Translations under genes and position numbers: made by a program
Source: a bacterium
GTDB lineage: Bacteria > SM23-81 > DAOVCL01
Reading direction: 5' to 3'
DNA: 7,507 bases
Assembly (NCBI GenBank): GCA_029932675.1
Contig: JAOZPP010000095.1
Span: forward strand, 1 to 7,507
Shown: positions 554-5,164 of the stretch, one piece after another
Position numbering within the stretch: position 1 is the first letter of the stretch
Layout: each line of letters begins with the position of its first letter
Notes under the pieces: model-generated
The model's database searches: none
Seen by the model: only the letters and a program-made list of their open reading frames with translations
Told to the model about the DNA's origin: nothing

Positions 554-3500
554 CTATCTCGAACGGTTCTTTTTGACTCTGGTTTCGAAAATCGAATACA
601 TAACGGGGACAAGAATCAGCGTAACAAGCGTGGAAACCAACAGCCCACCAATAACCGAGATGGCCAGGGGACTCCACATTTCCGATCCTTCTCCGGTTTT
701 CAAAGCAAGAGGCAGTAGGGCAAAGATGGTGGTGAACGCGGTCATCAGTACAGGCCGCAGCCGGCGGGGGCCGGAGACCAAAATGGCCTCAAAGAGCTTA
801 AGCCCTCGCGCCCGCATAATGTTGATGTAATCCACTAACACAATGGCGTTGTTCACCACAATCCCTACTAACATCACCATACCCACAAAGGAGATGGCGT
901 TGAGGGTCTTGCCGGTAATAAATAACGCCCAAATCACCCCCACGATGGCGAAGGGAATGGAGAAAAGGATGACAAAGGGATCGAGGAGCGACTCGAACTG
1001 AGCGGCCATCACCATATAGACCAGGATGATCCCGAAAACCAGGGCAATGCCCAGCCAGCGGAAAGACTCGGCCTGATCCTGGGCGGAACCCCCAATCTCC
1101 ACGTCAATCCCCTCTGGGATGGAGATTTTGGCTAATCCCTTTTTCAAATCGGCCACTACCTTCCCTAATGATCGCTTGTACAGGCTTCCTCCAACGTAGA
1201 CCACCCGTTCCTGATCCTTGCGCTCAATGGTCAAGGGGCCTCTTCTCTCCACAATCCGGGCGATGTTGCTGATGGGGATCTGCTTGCCCAGAGGAGAGGT
1301 GACAAAGGCGTTCTCCAGATCGGCGAGGCGCTGCCGATCCGAGCCCTGCAGTCGGACAAAGGTGTCGTACTCCTCTCCGCCCTCCCGGTACTTGGTAACC
1401 ACATCTCCATAGAATTTGGTGCGAAGCGTTGAGGCAATCTGGGCCATGTTCAAGCCCAAAGAAGCCGCTTTCTTACGGTCCACCTCCACCCAGAGCTCCG
1501 GCTTGCCCTTCTCCCGGGAGATGGTGACGTCGGTCAAACCCGGGATTTTATCCATGATCTTCTTAACTTCGACGGCAAAGGCATCCGTCTTGGCGATATC
1601 GTGCCCGTAGATCTCTACGGTCACCGGCTTGACCCCACCGGACATCATCTGCATGGGATCCTGCTGGGCAAAATCAATGACCTGGATCCCAGGAATTTTA
1701 GAGATCTCCTTACTCAGGGCTTGAGCGATATCCCGATCCGAACGTTTGCGCTCGTTCTTGGGTACCAGTCGCCCCCCCACCATGATGATGTGGGTGTCGC
1801 TTCGCTGGCCCATCATGGATTCCATGCCCATCTCGCTCACCCCGCAGCGGGCGTACATCACTTTCCTTTCCGGAACCTCCTTCTCCATGATATCCTCGAT
1901 CTTTTCCATCACCTGGTCGGTGGCCTCCACCCGAGTGCCGACGGGCAGCTTCACCGTGCCCATAACCTCGCTCTGATCTATGGTCGGCATAAATTCCGTT
2001 CCTACCACCTTGAATAGAAAGAGACTACCCACAAAGACCCCCAGGCCGACCGCTACGGTGATCTTCCGATGGTTTAGGGCCCAGTTCAACACCCTCCTGT
2101 AGGTGGCTTCAAGGCCTGTAAACCATTTCTCGCTGAAGTCGTGAAACCGTCTGATAAGCCCTTTTCGCTCTTCCCCTGGTAAGGGCACCCGCATAAACTG
2201 GGAGGATAGCATAGGAGTAAGGGTCAAAGCCGAGAACAAAGAGGCAGCCATGACAATTATCGCTACCAAGGCCAATTCCCGAAACATAATACCTGTAAGC
2301 CCTTTCACAAAGATGATTGGGAAAAAGATAGCGATCGTGGTGAACGTGGAGGCCATTACTGCCGTACCCACTTCCCCGGCACCAAACATGGACGCTTCTC
2401 TTCTGGATTCACCCTCCGTGCGGTGGCGGTAGATATTCTCGTAGATTACGATGGCATTGTCCACCACCATGCCGAGGGCAATGGCGATGGCGGAGAGGGA
2501 CATCATGTTGATGGTGTATCCTCCAGTGTAAAGAAAAAGGAAGGCAACGATTAAAGAGACCGGGATGGTTACGGCAATGATAAAACTCCCCCGGATCTCT
2601 CGCAGAAAGAAGAAGACCACCAATACGACGAACAGAAGCGCCCAGCCGACTGTGCTGGCTAAGTTGTTAATCGAACGGACAATGAATTCAGAAAAGTCCA
2701 TAGCCAGAACGACCTTCACATCTGGCGGCAGTTTCTTCTCCAATTTGGGGAGGGCCTTTTTGATGTGGTTGACTACGGTGACCGTGTTGGCCCCGGACTG
2801 CTTCTGCACCATGACGATTAGGCCCCGCCCACGATTGATGCGCACCCGACGGTCTATCTCCTTAAAGGAATCCTTTACTTGGGCCACATCTCGGAGATAG
2901 ATGGGCGTACCATTGAAAGTGCCCACCACCACGTCGTTGATCTCTTCAACGTGCTGAAATTCTCCGGGAACCCGGATAATGTACTCGGTCCTCCCGATTT
3001 TCAAATCCCCGGCGGGCAGGCTGAAATTCTCTGCCGCTAATATCCCGGTCACCTGAGGGAGCGAAAGGTGATAGGCCTCCAGGCGCTGGCGGTCTATATT
3101 GACCTGGATTTCCCGTTCCAGCCCGCCTATGATAGCGGTCATGGCAACGCCCGGGATACGCTTCAACGGATCGCAAAATTCATCCTCGATGATGTCGTGA
3201 AGATCGGGATAGCTCTGCTCGGCCGTCACCCCGAAAAGCAGCACCGGCATCATGGAAACGTCCATCTTGAACAGCATGGGCCGGTCCGCATCTTCGGGCA
3301 GGAACGTGACCGCCATATCGAGCCGCTGCCGCACATCGTTCGCCGCCTCGTCTAAATTTGTGCCCCATTCGAACCTCATAGTTACCACCGAGAGATTCTC
3401 CTCCGAGGAGGAGGTGACCTCCTTGATGTTGGGCGTGGTGCTCACCTGGTCCTCAACGACCTTTGTGACCTTGGTCTCGATGTCCTCGGCGCTGGCGCCA

Positions 3501-3655
3501 CGGTAGAACGTGATTACCGCCATGGTGGGTAGCTCCATCTTCGGAAAGAGATCAATCGGAAGAAGTCTCAGAGCCACCAGACCCAGTATCACAATCGCCA
3601 CAAAGATCATTGTTGTGAAGACAGGGCGCCTAACGCCAAATTCGGGTAATTTCAT
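554..3655 (-). CDS. RND efflux permease, HAE1 (AcrB-like) family
   Basis: A 1033-residue inner-membrane transporter of full family length. It exports hydrophobic or amphiphilic compounds by proton antiport as a trimer with the adaptor and TolC-like channel. The N-terminus MKLPEFGVRRPVFTTMIFVA is the standard cytoplasmic start and first helix. Two repeats of large periplasmic porter domain plus membrane helices are visible: helices at about 335-490 (first repeat) and 865-1025 (second repeat). Helix 4 has GMVVDNAIVIYEN, keeping the Asp equivalent to AcrB D407 (here D399) but with Asn at the next position. Helix 10 has VVNNAIVLVDY, with Asn (N935) where AcrB has K940. Helix 11 has RRLRPVLMT, keeping the Arg equivalent to R971 (about R967). 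Such D-N and N-N forms are, as I recall, common in HAE1 pumps outside the AcrB branch. Methionines cluster at about 609-615 and 668-671. Substrate cannot be told from sequence. GGAGG lies 9 nt before the ATG. Confidence 0.95.
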   Translation of the reverse strand: MKLPEFGVRRPVFTTMIFVAIVILGLVALRLLPIDLFPKMELPTMAVITFYRGASAEDIETKVTKVVEDQVSTTPNIKEVTSSSEENLSVVTMRFEWGTNLDEAANDVRQRLDMAVTFLPEDADRPMLFKMDVSMMPVLLFGVTAEQSYPDLHDIIEDEFCDPLKRIPGVAMTAIIGGLEREIQVNIDRQRLEAYHLSLPQVTGILAAENFSLPAGDLKIGRTEYIIRVPGEFQHVEEINDVVVGTFNGTPIYLRDVAQVKDSFKEIDRRVRINRGRGLIVMVQKQSGANTVTVVNHIKKALPKLEKKLPPDVKVVLAMDFSEFIVRSINNLASTVGWALLFVVLVVFFFLREIRGSFIIAVTIPVSLIVAFLFLYTGGYTINMMSLSAIAIALGMVVDNAIVIYENIYRHRTEGESRREASMFGAGEVGTAVMASTFTTIAIFFPIIFVKGLTGIMFRELALVAIIVMAASLFSALTLTPMLSSQFMRVPLPGEERKGLIRRFHDFSEKWFTGLEATYRRVLNWALNHRKITVAVGLGVFVGSLFLFKVVGTEFMPTIDQSEVMGTVKLPVGTRVEATDQVMEKIEDIMEKEVPERKVMYARCGVSEMGMESMMGQRSDTHIIMVGGRLVPKNERKRSDRDIAQALSKEISKIPGIQVIDFAQQDPMQMMSGGVKPVTVEIYGHDIAKTDAFAVEVKKIMDKIPGLTDVTISREKGKPELWVEVDRKKAASLGLNMAQIASTLRTKFYGDVVTKYREGGEEYDTFVRLQGSDRQRLADLENAFVTSPLGKQIPISNIARIVERRGPLTIERKDQERVVYVGGSLYKRSLGKVVADLKKGLAKISIPEGIDVEIGGSAQDQAESFRWLGIALVFGIILVYMVMAAQFESLLDPFVILFSIPFAIVGVIWALFITGKTLNAISFVGMVMLVGIVVNNAIVLVDYINIMRARGLKLFEAILVSGPRRLRPVLMTAFTTIFALLPLALKTGEGSEMWSPLAISVIGGLLVSTLVTLILVPVMYSIFETRVKKNRSR

Positions 3656-3664
3656 CAGTTGTTA

Positions 3665-3669
3665 CCTCC
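3665..3669 (-). promoter_or_regulatory. Ribosome binding site of the permease gene
   Basis: GGAGG on the minus strand, 9 nt before the ATG at 3655. It starts only 6 nt past the end of the long inverted repeat at 3676-3758, so folding of that repeat could affect access to it (inference). Confidence 0.75.
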
Positions 3670-3675
3670 ACTTGT

Positions 3676-3758
3676 TTACAAAGAATTGAAAAGAAATCCC
3701 TTCCATTCCCTTCAAGTCTTTGTAATCCTTTATAGCTATTCCTTTCAATTCTTTGTAA
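3676..3758 (-). repeat. Right copy of imperfect-palindrome repeat
   Basis: TTACAAAGAATTGAAA (minus, 3758-3743) and its exact reverse complement (minus, 3691-3676) form a perfect 16-bp inverted repeat enclosing 51 nt. The interior holds ATGGAAGGGA (3706-3697), also found in the left copy at 4193-4254, and a second near-copy of the arm, TTACAAAGACTTGAAGGG (3725-3708), 33 nt after the first and matching it at 16 of 18 positions. The unit begins right after the restored TAG stop of the GxxExxY gene and ends 6 nt before the permease ribosome binding site. Confidence 0.85.
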
Positions 3759-4179
3759 CTATTTCCCTTCGGTTTCCTGTATAAATTTACCCTTTTTGTG
3801 CTTGTAGAAGTTCTCCAATCTCTTAAATTCAAGCTCAGGATTGGCAAAGTTGACCAGGAGTCCCACATCTAAGTTCGTGGCCCGCAGATACGATATTACC
3901 TGCGCTTTGTGTTTGTCATTTAATTGTTCTACGGCCCTTAGCCTCTACAATAACAGTCCCATTTACTAACATGTCTAATCTGTGGTTTCCGACTAAGGCG
4001 CCATTATAAAATATCTCCACCGGCTTTTCCTTTTCCACCCTCATTCCATTACTTTCCAAATCTACAACAACTGCATTTTGATATATGCCTTCCAAAAAGC
4101 CTGGCCCCAATTTCCGATGAAGATGGTAGAATGACCTGATTATCTTAGACGTCAGTTCTGCATGCAGATACTCAGGCAT
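3759..4179 (-). pseudogene. GxxExxY-family protein gene (PD-(D/E)XK fold), frameshifted
   Basis: From the ATG at 4179 the frame encodes MPEYLHAELTSKIIRSFYHL, then LGPGFLEGIY, containing the GxxExxY signature (G27, E30, Y33), then HRLDMLV (D69) and VIVEAK (E79, K81). These acidic and lysine residues match the PD-(D/E)XK nuclease-like pattern given for this family (Pfam PF13366); no activity is established. After VEAK the frame reads GRRTIK and stops at 3916, giving 87 residues. Leaving out one base of the C-run at 3935-3937 restores a frame reading AVEQLNDKHKAQVISYLRA, LDVGLLVNF, then ELEFKRLENFYKH to a TAG at 3759-3761. That is the conserved family C-terminus and gives about 139 residues, close to normal length. 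The start has AGGAG close upstream. Causes could be real decay, an assembly or sequencing error in the C-run, or, less likely, programmed frameshifting. GC is low (24 of 60 in the line at 4021). Confidence 0.85.
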
Positions 4180-4192
4180 AACTCCTTCTTTT

Positions 4193-4254
4193 TTACAATG
4201 ATCTGAAGAGATTTAAAAAGAGTTTCCCTTCCATATCTTTTCAATTCTTTGTAA
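4193..4254 (-). repeat. Left copy of imperfect-palindrome repeat
   Basis: On the minus strand the unit starts TTACAAAGAATTGAAA (4254-4239), has ATGGAAGGGA in the middle (4234-4225), and ends TTGTAA (4198-4193), the same order as in the right copy at 3676-3758. Only the outer 6 bases (TTACAA/TTGTAA) pair perfectly, so the right arm is more decayed here. Its first half overlaps the adaptor gene and provides that gene's last codons and TGA stop (4241-4243). Confidence 0.75.
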
Positions 4255-5164
4255 CTATTTTGACCTCGCTCCCATCCTTCAACATCTGCTGTCCAATGGT
4301 GACTATGGTCTCGCCTTCATCTAACCCTGCTAGCACCTCCACCTGATCGCCTTGGCTTGCCCCCAATTTAACATCTTTTCTCACTGCCCTTCCCCCATTG
4401 ACCACGAAGACATATCTCTTCCCCTCCCCCCCCAGGAGGCAATCCCGAGGGATCAACAGCACATCCTTGTGCTCAGCCACAAGCAACCTCACCCGGGCGA
4501 AAAATCCAGGTTTCAGCCTATGATCTGGGTTGCGAATGCTGATCTCTGCCGGAGCCGTCCTGCTCATAGGATCAACCACTGGACTCAATTTAGTCAACCG
4601 TCCAACGAATACCTCATCGGGATAGGCATCTACTCTTATTTTTGCTTTTTGCCCTATCTTCACTTTGGGGATGTCCCTTTCGATGATGTTGATCTTCGCC
4701 TTCACCCTGACCATAGAAACGATCATAGCGATTGGAGTTCCCATAGAGGGAGCTGGCTGAGGCGGATTGACGCCACTTCCCTTATCCAAAAAGACAGTGC
4801 CCACAATTCCGTCGATAGGTGAGGTAACCTCAGCAGGCTCAAACCTTAGCCCTGTTATATCCCGGTCTATGAGGGCAATCACATCCCCCTTCTTCACCCT
4901 ATCCCCCTCTTGCACCCTATTCTCGACCAGCTTCCCGGCCACCTTGGGATAGACTAAGATTTGATCTTCAGCCTTTATGTCCCCGGTAAACGAAAGCCAT
5001 TCCTTGATGTCACCTCTCTTCACCGTATCTACCCTTACGGGTACTGGCTTTGCCTCCTCCACGATCACTCTTCTTTGCTGCTTCCCCTTATACTTGGTCA
5101 ATATCGTATACCCGGAAAAACCAACAATACCTAAGATCAATATCCAAATAATTACCTTCTTCAT
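4241..5164 (-). CDS. Periplasmic adaptor (membrane fusion protein), hairpin-less
   Basis: A 307-residue adaptor linking the RND permease to the outer-membrane channel. An N-terminal anchor helix (about residues 4-23, no lipobox cysteine) is followed by a periplasmic body. The first lipoyl half-motif is at about 73-100 (YPKVAGKLVENRVQEGDRVK) and the second at about 111-132 (AEVTSPIDGIVGTVFLDKG). Next come a beta-barrel domain (about 150-228, with VGRLTKLSPVVDP and LKPGFFARVRL) and a membrane-proximal domain (about 235-305, with LAGLDEGETIVTIGQQ). Only about 11 residues separate the lipoyl halves, where AcrA-type adaptors carry a long coiled-coil hairpin; this also explains the short length. 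The start is 5 nt after the channel stop, and GGGGAG (5173-5178) inside the channel gene's end serves as ribosome binding site, suggesting coupled translation. The last codons and stop lie in the repeat shared with the GxxExxY cassette. Confidence 0.92.
   Translation of the reverse strand: MKKVIIWILILGIVGFSGYTILTKYKGKQQRRVIVEEAKPVPVRVDTVKRGDIKEWLSFTGDIKAEDQILVYPKVAGKLVENRVQEGDRVKKGDVIALIDRDITGLRFEPAEVTSPIDGIVGTVFLDKGSGVNPPQPAPSMGTPIAMIVSMVRVKAKINIIERDIPKVKIGQKAKIRVDAYPDEVFVGRLTKLSPVVDPMSRTAPAEISIRNPDHRLKPGFFARVRLLVAEHKDVLLIPRDCLLGGEGKRYVFVVNGGRAVRKDVKLGASQGDQVEVLAGLDEGETIVTIGQQMLKDGSEVKIVTKN

Follow-up and report, generated by a model that had tools for sequence, protein, structure and literature searches.

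The window, by which we mean the whole stretch of 7,507 nt that was analysed, is one entire contig (C17) of a 3.03-Mb genome (G000) from a sparsely sampled phylum. Its minus strand carries genes for a TetR-type regulator, a TolC-type outer membrane protein, an RND adaptor and an RND permease. The RND efflux periplasmic adaptor gene (4241–5164, minus strand; TIGR01730, 190.7 bits) and the RND efflux permease gene downstream of it (554–3655, minus strand; NF033617, E = 5.9 × 10−243, a match below that model's own cut-off) leave the interval 3656–4240 between them, which agrees with the 585-nt gap given in the earlier note. The permease ribosome binding site lies within 3656–3675. The rest of the gap holds a GxxExxY gene and two palindromes of the same polarity, and no transposase ORF was found in the gap.

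The upstream palindromic repeat (GTTACAAAGAATTGAAAAGATATGGAAGGGAAACTCTTTTTAAATCTCTTCAGATCATTGTAAAAAAG; 4188–4255, minus strand) was recognised by its fold, by an exact 22-mer and by its alignment with nine other copies, and the downstream repeat (3676–3759, minus strand), which has the polarity of the upstream copy plus an extra partial unit, by its fold and the same 22-mer. This 22-mer, TTTCAATTCTTTGTAACTATTT, occurs at 3743–3764 and 4239–4260; by our own arithmetic, the chance expectation for such exact 22-mers in 7.5 kb is about 10−6. Direct location of the strings confirmed that both copies also contain ATGGAAGGGA and then TTGTAA in the same order and polarity. The predicted RNA fold of 3676–3759 was more stable than all 200 shuffles (z = −4.2), and that of about 4188–4255 had z = −2.2 against shuffles.

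The first 15 bases of the upstream repeat, GTT ACA AAG AAT TGA, encode the last residues of the adaptor and its stop codon, and the stop codon TAG of the GxxExxY gene abuts the downstream palindrome. The repeat supplies the adaptor stop codon, and the position of the element in the operon breaks neither host gene. The view that the gap is filled by a gene plus repeats stands, but the upstream repeat is not purely intergenic.

The GxxExxY protein

The gene between the repeats is present in two frame segments. The first part (3916–4179, minus strand; MPEYLHAEL...VEAK, then out of frame to TGA) carries the GxxExxY, D and ExK residues, and the second part, in a shifted frame (3759–3945, minus strand; AVEQLNDKHKAQVISYL...ETEGK, then TAG), carries QxxxY and NF. 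When the two segments were joined, the match to TIGR04256 reached 136.6 bits (E = 4.5 × 10−40; curated cut-off 35 bits), whereas the frames taken separately scored 78 and 46 bits, and the match to PF13366 (PDDEXK_3) had E = 1.7 × 10−38. With its G-x-x-E-x-x-Y motif the gene is a clear member of the GxxExxY family, as had been proposed.

The frame break, which was overlooked in the first reading of the window, lies near 3940 and consists of one extra G (the window reads GGGCC where the intact ortholog of the same-genus genome G001 reads GGCC). The dN/dS between the window gene and this ortholog was about 0.11 overall, with 0.27 in the first part and 0.02 after the break. The sequence after the extra G is almost without amino-acid changes relative to G001. 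These ratios show that the gene has been under purifying selection, and indicate that the break is either very recent or a sequence error.

We built an AlphaFold2 model of the protein on an alignment of 39 sequences (pLDDT 93.4). Its best match in the PDB was Cas4 SSO0001 (E = 3.5 × 10−4, Z = 9.5), and further structure matches included LHK-Exo, lambda exonuclease and AdnAB. Most Z values were below 8, so that confidence in the fold class comes mainly from combining them with the PF13366 match. A sequence search of solved structures gave no relative at a useful E-value. Among the positions invariant in the 39 sequences are G26, E31, Y34, D70, E80, K82, Q94 and Y98; the series E..D..ExK..QxxxY is the residue set of Cas4/RecB-type nucleases. 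Both the core fold and the E/D..D..ExK residues of the PD-(D/E)XK superfamily are present. The model thus predicts that GxxExxY is a PD-(D/E)XK nuclease of the Cas4/RecB/lambda-exonuclease type, and the nuclease-like fold suggested for it earlier is borne out by the PF13366 match and by the similarity of the model to Cas4 and lambda-type exonucleases.

The likeness to Cas4, RecB and lambda exonuclease lies in the predicted fold and in these motifs, whereas GxxExxY is much shorter. A PADLOC scan of three GxxExxY sequences gave only marginal matches to Cas4 models and no clearer support for a role in defence. A literature search that reached a minority of subscription papers and preprints found no work on the function of GxxExxY, on its association with repeats or on the repeat strings; the family is named in passing, adjoining a reverse transcriptase.

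Inverted arrays around GxxExxY genes

GxxExxY loci were gathered from 60 genomes, one per species, and from a scan of GTDB contigs. For each locus, the 250 nt upstream of the gene were compared with the reverse complement of the 250 nt downstream, and two nulls were used. When 1030 placements drawn at random within these loci served as the null, 71 of the 103 genes exceeded the 99th percentile and 81 the 95th (Mann–Whitney, p = 2 × 10−45), and the loci came from at least 12 phyla. With 135 neighbouring ORFs as the null, 74% of 107 GxxExxY genes lay above the 95th percentile. Repeats thus regularly flank GxxExxY genes, which the earlier note had put forward as a point to check.

The arms share a degenerate CRCRRAK consensus across loci from different phyla. 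Each arm has two to four units, with a period mode of 9–10 nt (examples of arm words are ACCACAGAGgACACAGAG, CGCAAAGGCGCAAAG, CACGAAGGACACGAAG, CGCAGATTACGCAGATTA and CACGGATGAACACGGATG), and the word found in the window diverges from this consensus. Within 100 nt upstream, unit pairs on the strand of the gene occur at 7.4 per kb, compared with 0.08 per kb beyond 500 nt; within 100 nt downstream, those on the opposite strand occur at 8.9 per kb, again compared with 0.08 per kb beyond 500 nt. The density of units is therefore about 100-fold higher within 100 nt of the gene. The CRCRRAK motif was derived from these same loci, so it is tested fairly by the rate in the far flanks, the asymmetry between strands and the counts in genomes. 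About a quarter of the genes (26 of 107) have no detectable unit pair.

At one locus on a Methylophaga lonarensis contig (L151), the GxxExxY gene is enclosed by an inverted repeat of about 154 nt that is almost perfect and combines the CACAGAG and CGCAGAT word types. Searches for the gene or the cassette elsewhere gave no match in phages, none in E. coli and seven in plasmids, and the best plasmid record looked chromosomal.

As a comparison family, we used 45 four-helix-bundle genes (PF05635), which encode the S23 protein of 23S rRNA intervening sequences. Inverted flank similarity exceeded the 95th percentile of the same control for 76% of them, and they carry inverted arrays as often as GxxExxY genes do. 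Their arrays have a strict 7-nt period (0.51 at lag 7, 0.47 at lag 14 and 0.42 at lag 21), whereas the period in GxxExxY arrays is 9–10 nt, and their words are unlike those of GxxExxY. Genome-specific words, such as GGTTAGC, GTCCTGA and AGACAGA, were seen at loci L175–L224 (for example L175, L188 and L217). The possibility that CACAGAG repeats are common to the four-helix-bundle genes was rejected, since the CRCRRAK unit pair occurred in none of the 45. Two unrelated small-protein families therefore have one architecture with family-specific periods.

Relatives, solo copies and dispersed units

G001 is the only same-genus genome in the sample. It carries an intact gene at the same junction with repeats on both sides; the region is 81% identical to the window at the nucleotide level, and the flanking repeats differ in length. 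It is thus not the case that relatives share the gene with unrelated flanks. Pump operons with an empty adaptor–permease junction, another point that the earlier note had put forward to check, do exist in relatives: in G002, G003, G006, G010 and G012, which belong to the rest of the phylum and beyond and all lie outside the genus, the homologous junctions measure about 10–60 nt and have no cassette. These short junctions make the insertion into the pump operon look like a genus-level event. No precise DNA-level empty site was found for the window cassette, the same-genus site in G001 being occupied.

The window repeat is rare in its own genome, with four copies. A DNA search of G000 with the cassette returned two more palindromes and no second gene. 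Gene-less copies lie at these two further places in G000 (C15 and C55) and at four in G001 (C100, C197 and two in C208). Ten repeat copies align in one polarity, with the consensus GTTACAAAGAATTGAAAGGAATGGAAGGGAAAAnCTTTTCAATTCCCTTCAATTCATTGTAAAAAAAG and a consensus stem of 23 pairs. One solo palindrome in G001 lies at a junction between genes that we take, by eye, to be Lon and Memo; it is absent from G000, which has other DNA there. Another (G001:C208:9345; L172 near 4845) starts directly at the stop codon of a gene that by eye looks like a Cas6-type gene. In the C197 flank of G001 (query part 747–821), we also observed a AGAATGTAAAATGAAGAATGTAGAATTAAGAATG-type array that resembles the 7-nt arrays of four-helix-bundle genes and occurs at dozens of places in G001 and at a few in G000.

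MITEs and Rickettsia palindromic elements are short palindromes at intergenic or gene-end sites. The repeats of the window are similar in that one palindrome supplies a gene's stop codon, but they are linked to a nuclease gene and not to a DDE transposon.

We compared further sites between the two genomes. L053 is a cassette in G001, and at the orthologous site G000 retains the arrays at both ends and the flanks on both sides, with about 160 nt of unrelated DNA in place of the gene; this is a gene-less derivative that lost the gene and kept the arrays. Two other candidates for empty sites were rejected: at the L040 site in G000 the cassette is absent, but the downstream flank is not syntenic, and at the C197 site the alignment was poor. 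The presence or absence of the doublet amounts to one difference between two species, and the empty allele holds other filler. In the compared loci, no precise empty site, target duplication or excision product was seen for a complete GxxExxY cassette.

Dispersed units were counted in the 60 genomes with the pattern CRCRRAGNNCRCRRAG, and its reversed form served as the control. There were 606 hits against 82 control hits in genomes with a GxxExxY gene, and 225 against 148 in genomes without one (Mann–Whitney, p = 6 × 10−4). An excess of at least 10 units was found in 9 of the 17 gene-bearing genomes and in 3 of the 43 gene-less genomes (Fisher's test, p = 2 × 10−4); these counts represent one genome per species rather than populations, and the statistics ignore the kinship of the genomes. 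In the complete 5.0-Mb chromosome of G050, which has one GxxExxY gene, 133 units were counted against 3 in the control, and the solo copies occupy more than 100 unrelated sites; nearly all of the listed copies are AACCACAGAGTCACAGAGGACACRGAGG-like. The repeats are therefore linked to GxxExxY genes, and a genome-wide distribution without such a link did not emerge. Three genomes in which no GxxExxY gene was detected (G011, G015 and G045) have an excess of CRCRRAG unit pairs, which indicates that units can persist or spread without a detectable gene. One of them, G011, also has 19 partial four-helix-bundle matches, often in divergent pairs.

The similarity of arm words was positively correlated with pairwise protein identity (ρ = 0.24, permutation p = 0.003). 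The correlation held below 60% identity (0.21, p = 0.005) and was not significant below 50% (p = 0.14), and control DNA of equal length taken 600 nt upstream showed no covariation with the protein (0.005). The covariation between word and protein is modest. In the protein tree, in which many inner branches are unresolved and for which a few word labels were set by eye, T-ending words (GAT/AAT) mark 12 loci, and 9 of these group in a single 12-member clade (SH-aLRT 97). This clade joins loci from several unrelated genomes with the window's ortholog, and none of 500 label shuffles was as clustered.

What may spread the repeats

The arrays are associated with the gene in their flanking position, orientation, consensus, period, gene-correlated dispersal and covariation with the protein. 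The earlier note had described the cassette as a small movable unit. The family-wide link between repeat and gene, the solo copies, the covariation of word and protein and the empty junctions outside the genus favour that description; they do not reach as far as recent movement of this cassette, which the only same-genus relative carries at the same junction.

In REPIN-RAYT systems, a single-copy Y1 transposase is paired with inverted repeats, some flanking it and others dispersed, and the types of the two co-evolve (PMC3116915). The GxxExxY system resembles them in that an enzyme gene present in few copies is flanked by inverted repeats, many gene-less copies are dispersed outside genes, and the flavour of the repeat follows the enzyme lineage. 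However, the enzyme differs, since GxxExxY belongs by prediction to the PD-(D/E)XK nucleases and RAYT is an HUH transposase; no Y1/HUH transposase adjoins the repeats, and the Y1 genes lie elsewhere without them. The ends also differ: in REPIN-RAYT systems they are a single short palindromic word, in GxxExxY cassettes arrays of 9–10-nt units whose degenerate consensus is common to different phyla. Several different cassettes can occur in one genome, unlike in REPIN-RAYT systems.

On balance, we lean towards the view that the nuclease recognises the arrays and helps to spread or maintain them, and that the cassette is one of a widespread class of small elements. Such an element would be a single GxxExxY nuclease gene bounded by inverted arrays of a 9–10-nt word, with gene-less arrays or palindromes dispersed in the same genomes. 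The nuclease would recognise the periodic units, probably at both ends of the element or at both arms of a folded palindrome, and would cut or trim the DNA there. Repair or replication may then copy or preserve the repeats and, from time to time, the entire cassette, both in cis and in trans. An unrelated enzyme would thus take the place of RAYT in a partnership that resembles REPIN-RAYT.

Other explanations may be considered for the same observations. In 23S rRNA, intervening sequences contain an S23 ORF inside terminal inverted repeats and are cut by RNase III, and like the cassette they are sub-kilobase, have one small ORF, are tolerated inside an expressed unit and are of unsettled origin (PMC4990558). 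The cassette may be a passenger of the same sort, whose inverted ends pair in the transcript to form a stem that RNase III cuts, so that operons or rRNA tolerate the insert, while the protein has no share in moving the repeats. Its co-orientation with the operon, the matching layout with RNase III excision in 23S intervening sequences (PMC4990558) and the equally frequent inverted arrays of the S23 family agree with this. The cassette differs from 23S intervening sequences in that its insertion site lies between two protein genes and not in 23S rRNA, and in that the GxxExxY protein is unrelated to S23. Against the passenger reading, no rRNA was found around the sampled GxxExxY loci with a crude probe. 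The solo copies examined are stand-alone arrays between genes, tolerance at the RNA level leaves the spread unexplained, and neither word–protein covariation nor invariant nuclease residues would be expected of a passenger. We consider this explanation unlikely. A selfish unit of the homing type, in which the nuclease cuts insert-less alleles, repair copies the cassette in and the arrays are simply its ends, would account for the nuclease fold, the single gene, the tolerated intergenic spots and the persistence at the same site in two species. It accords poorly with a chromosome in which more than 100 unrelated sites carry solo copies and with the failure to find a conserved target sequence, and we give it the least credence of the explanations discussed here.

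It is also conceivable that another enzyme, a RAYT/IS200-type Y1 transposase, moves the repeats, and that GxxExxY genes merely land between them. Y1 transposases were present in all seven genomes tested (three matches in G000 and nine in G001). Unit arrays of the CRCRRAK type were nevertheless found at none of the 20 Y1 loci examined, and the one Y1-locus match to the window palindrome proved on inspection not to be a palindrome. A different dispersed repeat (GCGTCAACTCCTGTTGATGC...) adjoins a Y1 transposase gene in G001 (G001:C42:19279-19902), with a repeat score of 28 compared with 10–12 at other Y1 loci; this is apparently an ordinary REP-RAYT pair in the same genome. Since a Y1 enzyme would also fail to explain why a single gene family goes with a single repeat consensus in at least 12 phyla, we regard its involvement as improbable. 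No greater probability is assigned to the idea that the arrays are operators, bound by GxxExxY or a host factor for autoregulation, with the dispersed copies as regulatory sites. The arrays do lie immediately upstream of the gene, and the 9–10-nt period is near one helical turn, yet an equally strong inverted array lies downstream, solo palindromes occur after stop codons and between unrelated genes, and no DNA-binding domain was seen besides the nuclease fold.

Returning to the nuclease acting on its own arrays, several findings count against this model, namely the modest covariation and its loss below 50% identity, the three gene-less genomes with excess units, the quarter of genes in which no unit pair was detected, the fact that no precise empty site, target duplication or excision product was seen for a complete cassette, the Y1 transposases in the same genomes, which could act on the repeats, and the divergent word and broken frame of the window gene. 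We infer that GxxExxY proteins may bind the arrays specifically, cut them and promote the spread of the repeats, and that the enzyme would be a catalytic nuclease and the cassette mobile. This putative role in spreading or maintaining the repeats is much better founded than in the first reading. A bolder proposal, which we put forward tentatively and would sooner doubt than accept, is that there is a new class of mobile elements for which GxxExxY proteins serve as dedicated mobilising nucleases. They would be stand-alone Cas4/RecB-like PD-(D/E)XK enzymes that recognise arrays of periodic short words, with cognate words for each subfamily. Each would spread the cassette that encodes it as well as gene-less copies, which may number more than 100 in a genome, and the four-helix-bundle (S23/IVS) genes would form a parallel 7-nt class.

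GxxExxY is a common annotation in environmental genomes, for which the literature searched gave no function. A widespread bacterial DNA repeat family probably has this enzyme as its partner, and the repeat, whose unit and period can be read and whose word variants are cognate to the protein, provides a testable substrate for it. This suggests an origin for the dispersed CACAGAG-type repeats across phyla, and the 7-nt arrays of the four-helix-bundle genes bear on the origin of 23S rRNA intervening sequences. If it is true that the nuclease moves or maintains the repeats, a partnership like that of REPIN and RAYT would have evolved from a different enzyme.
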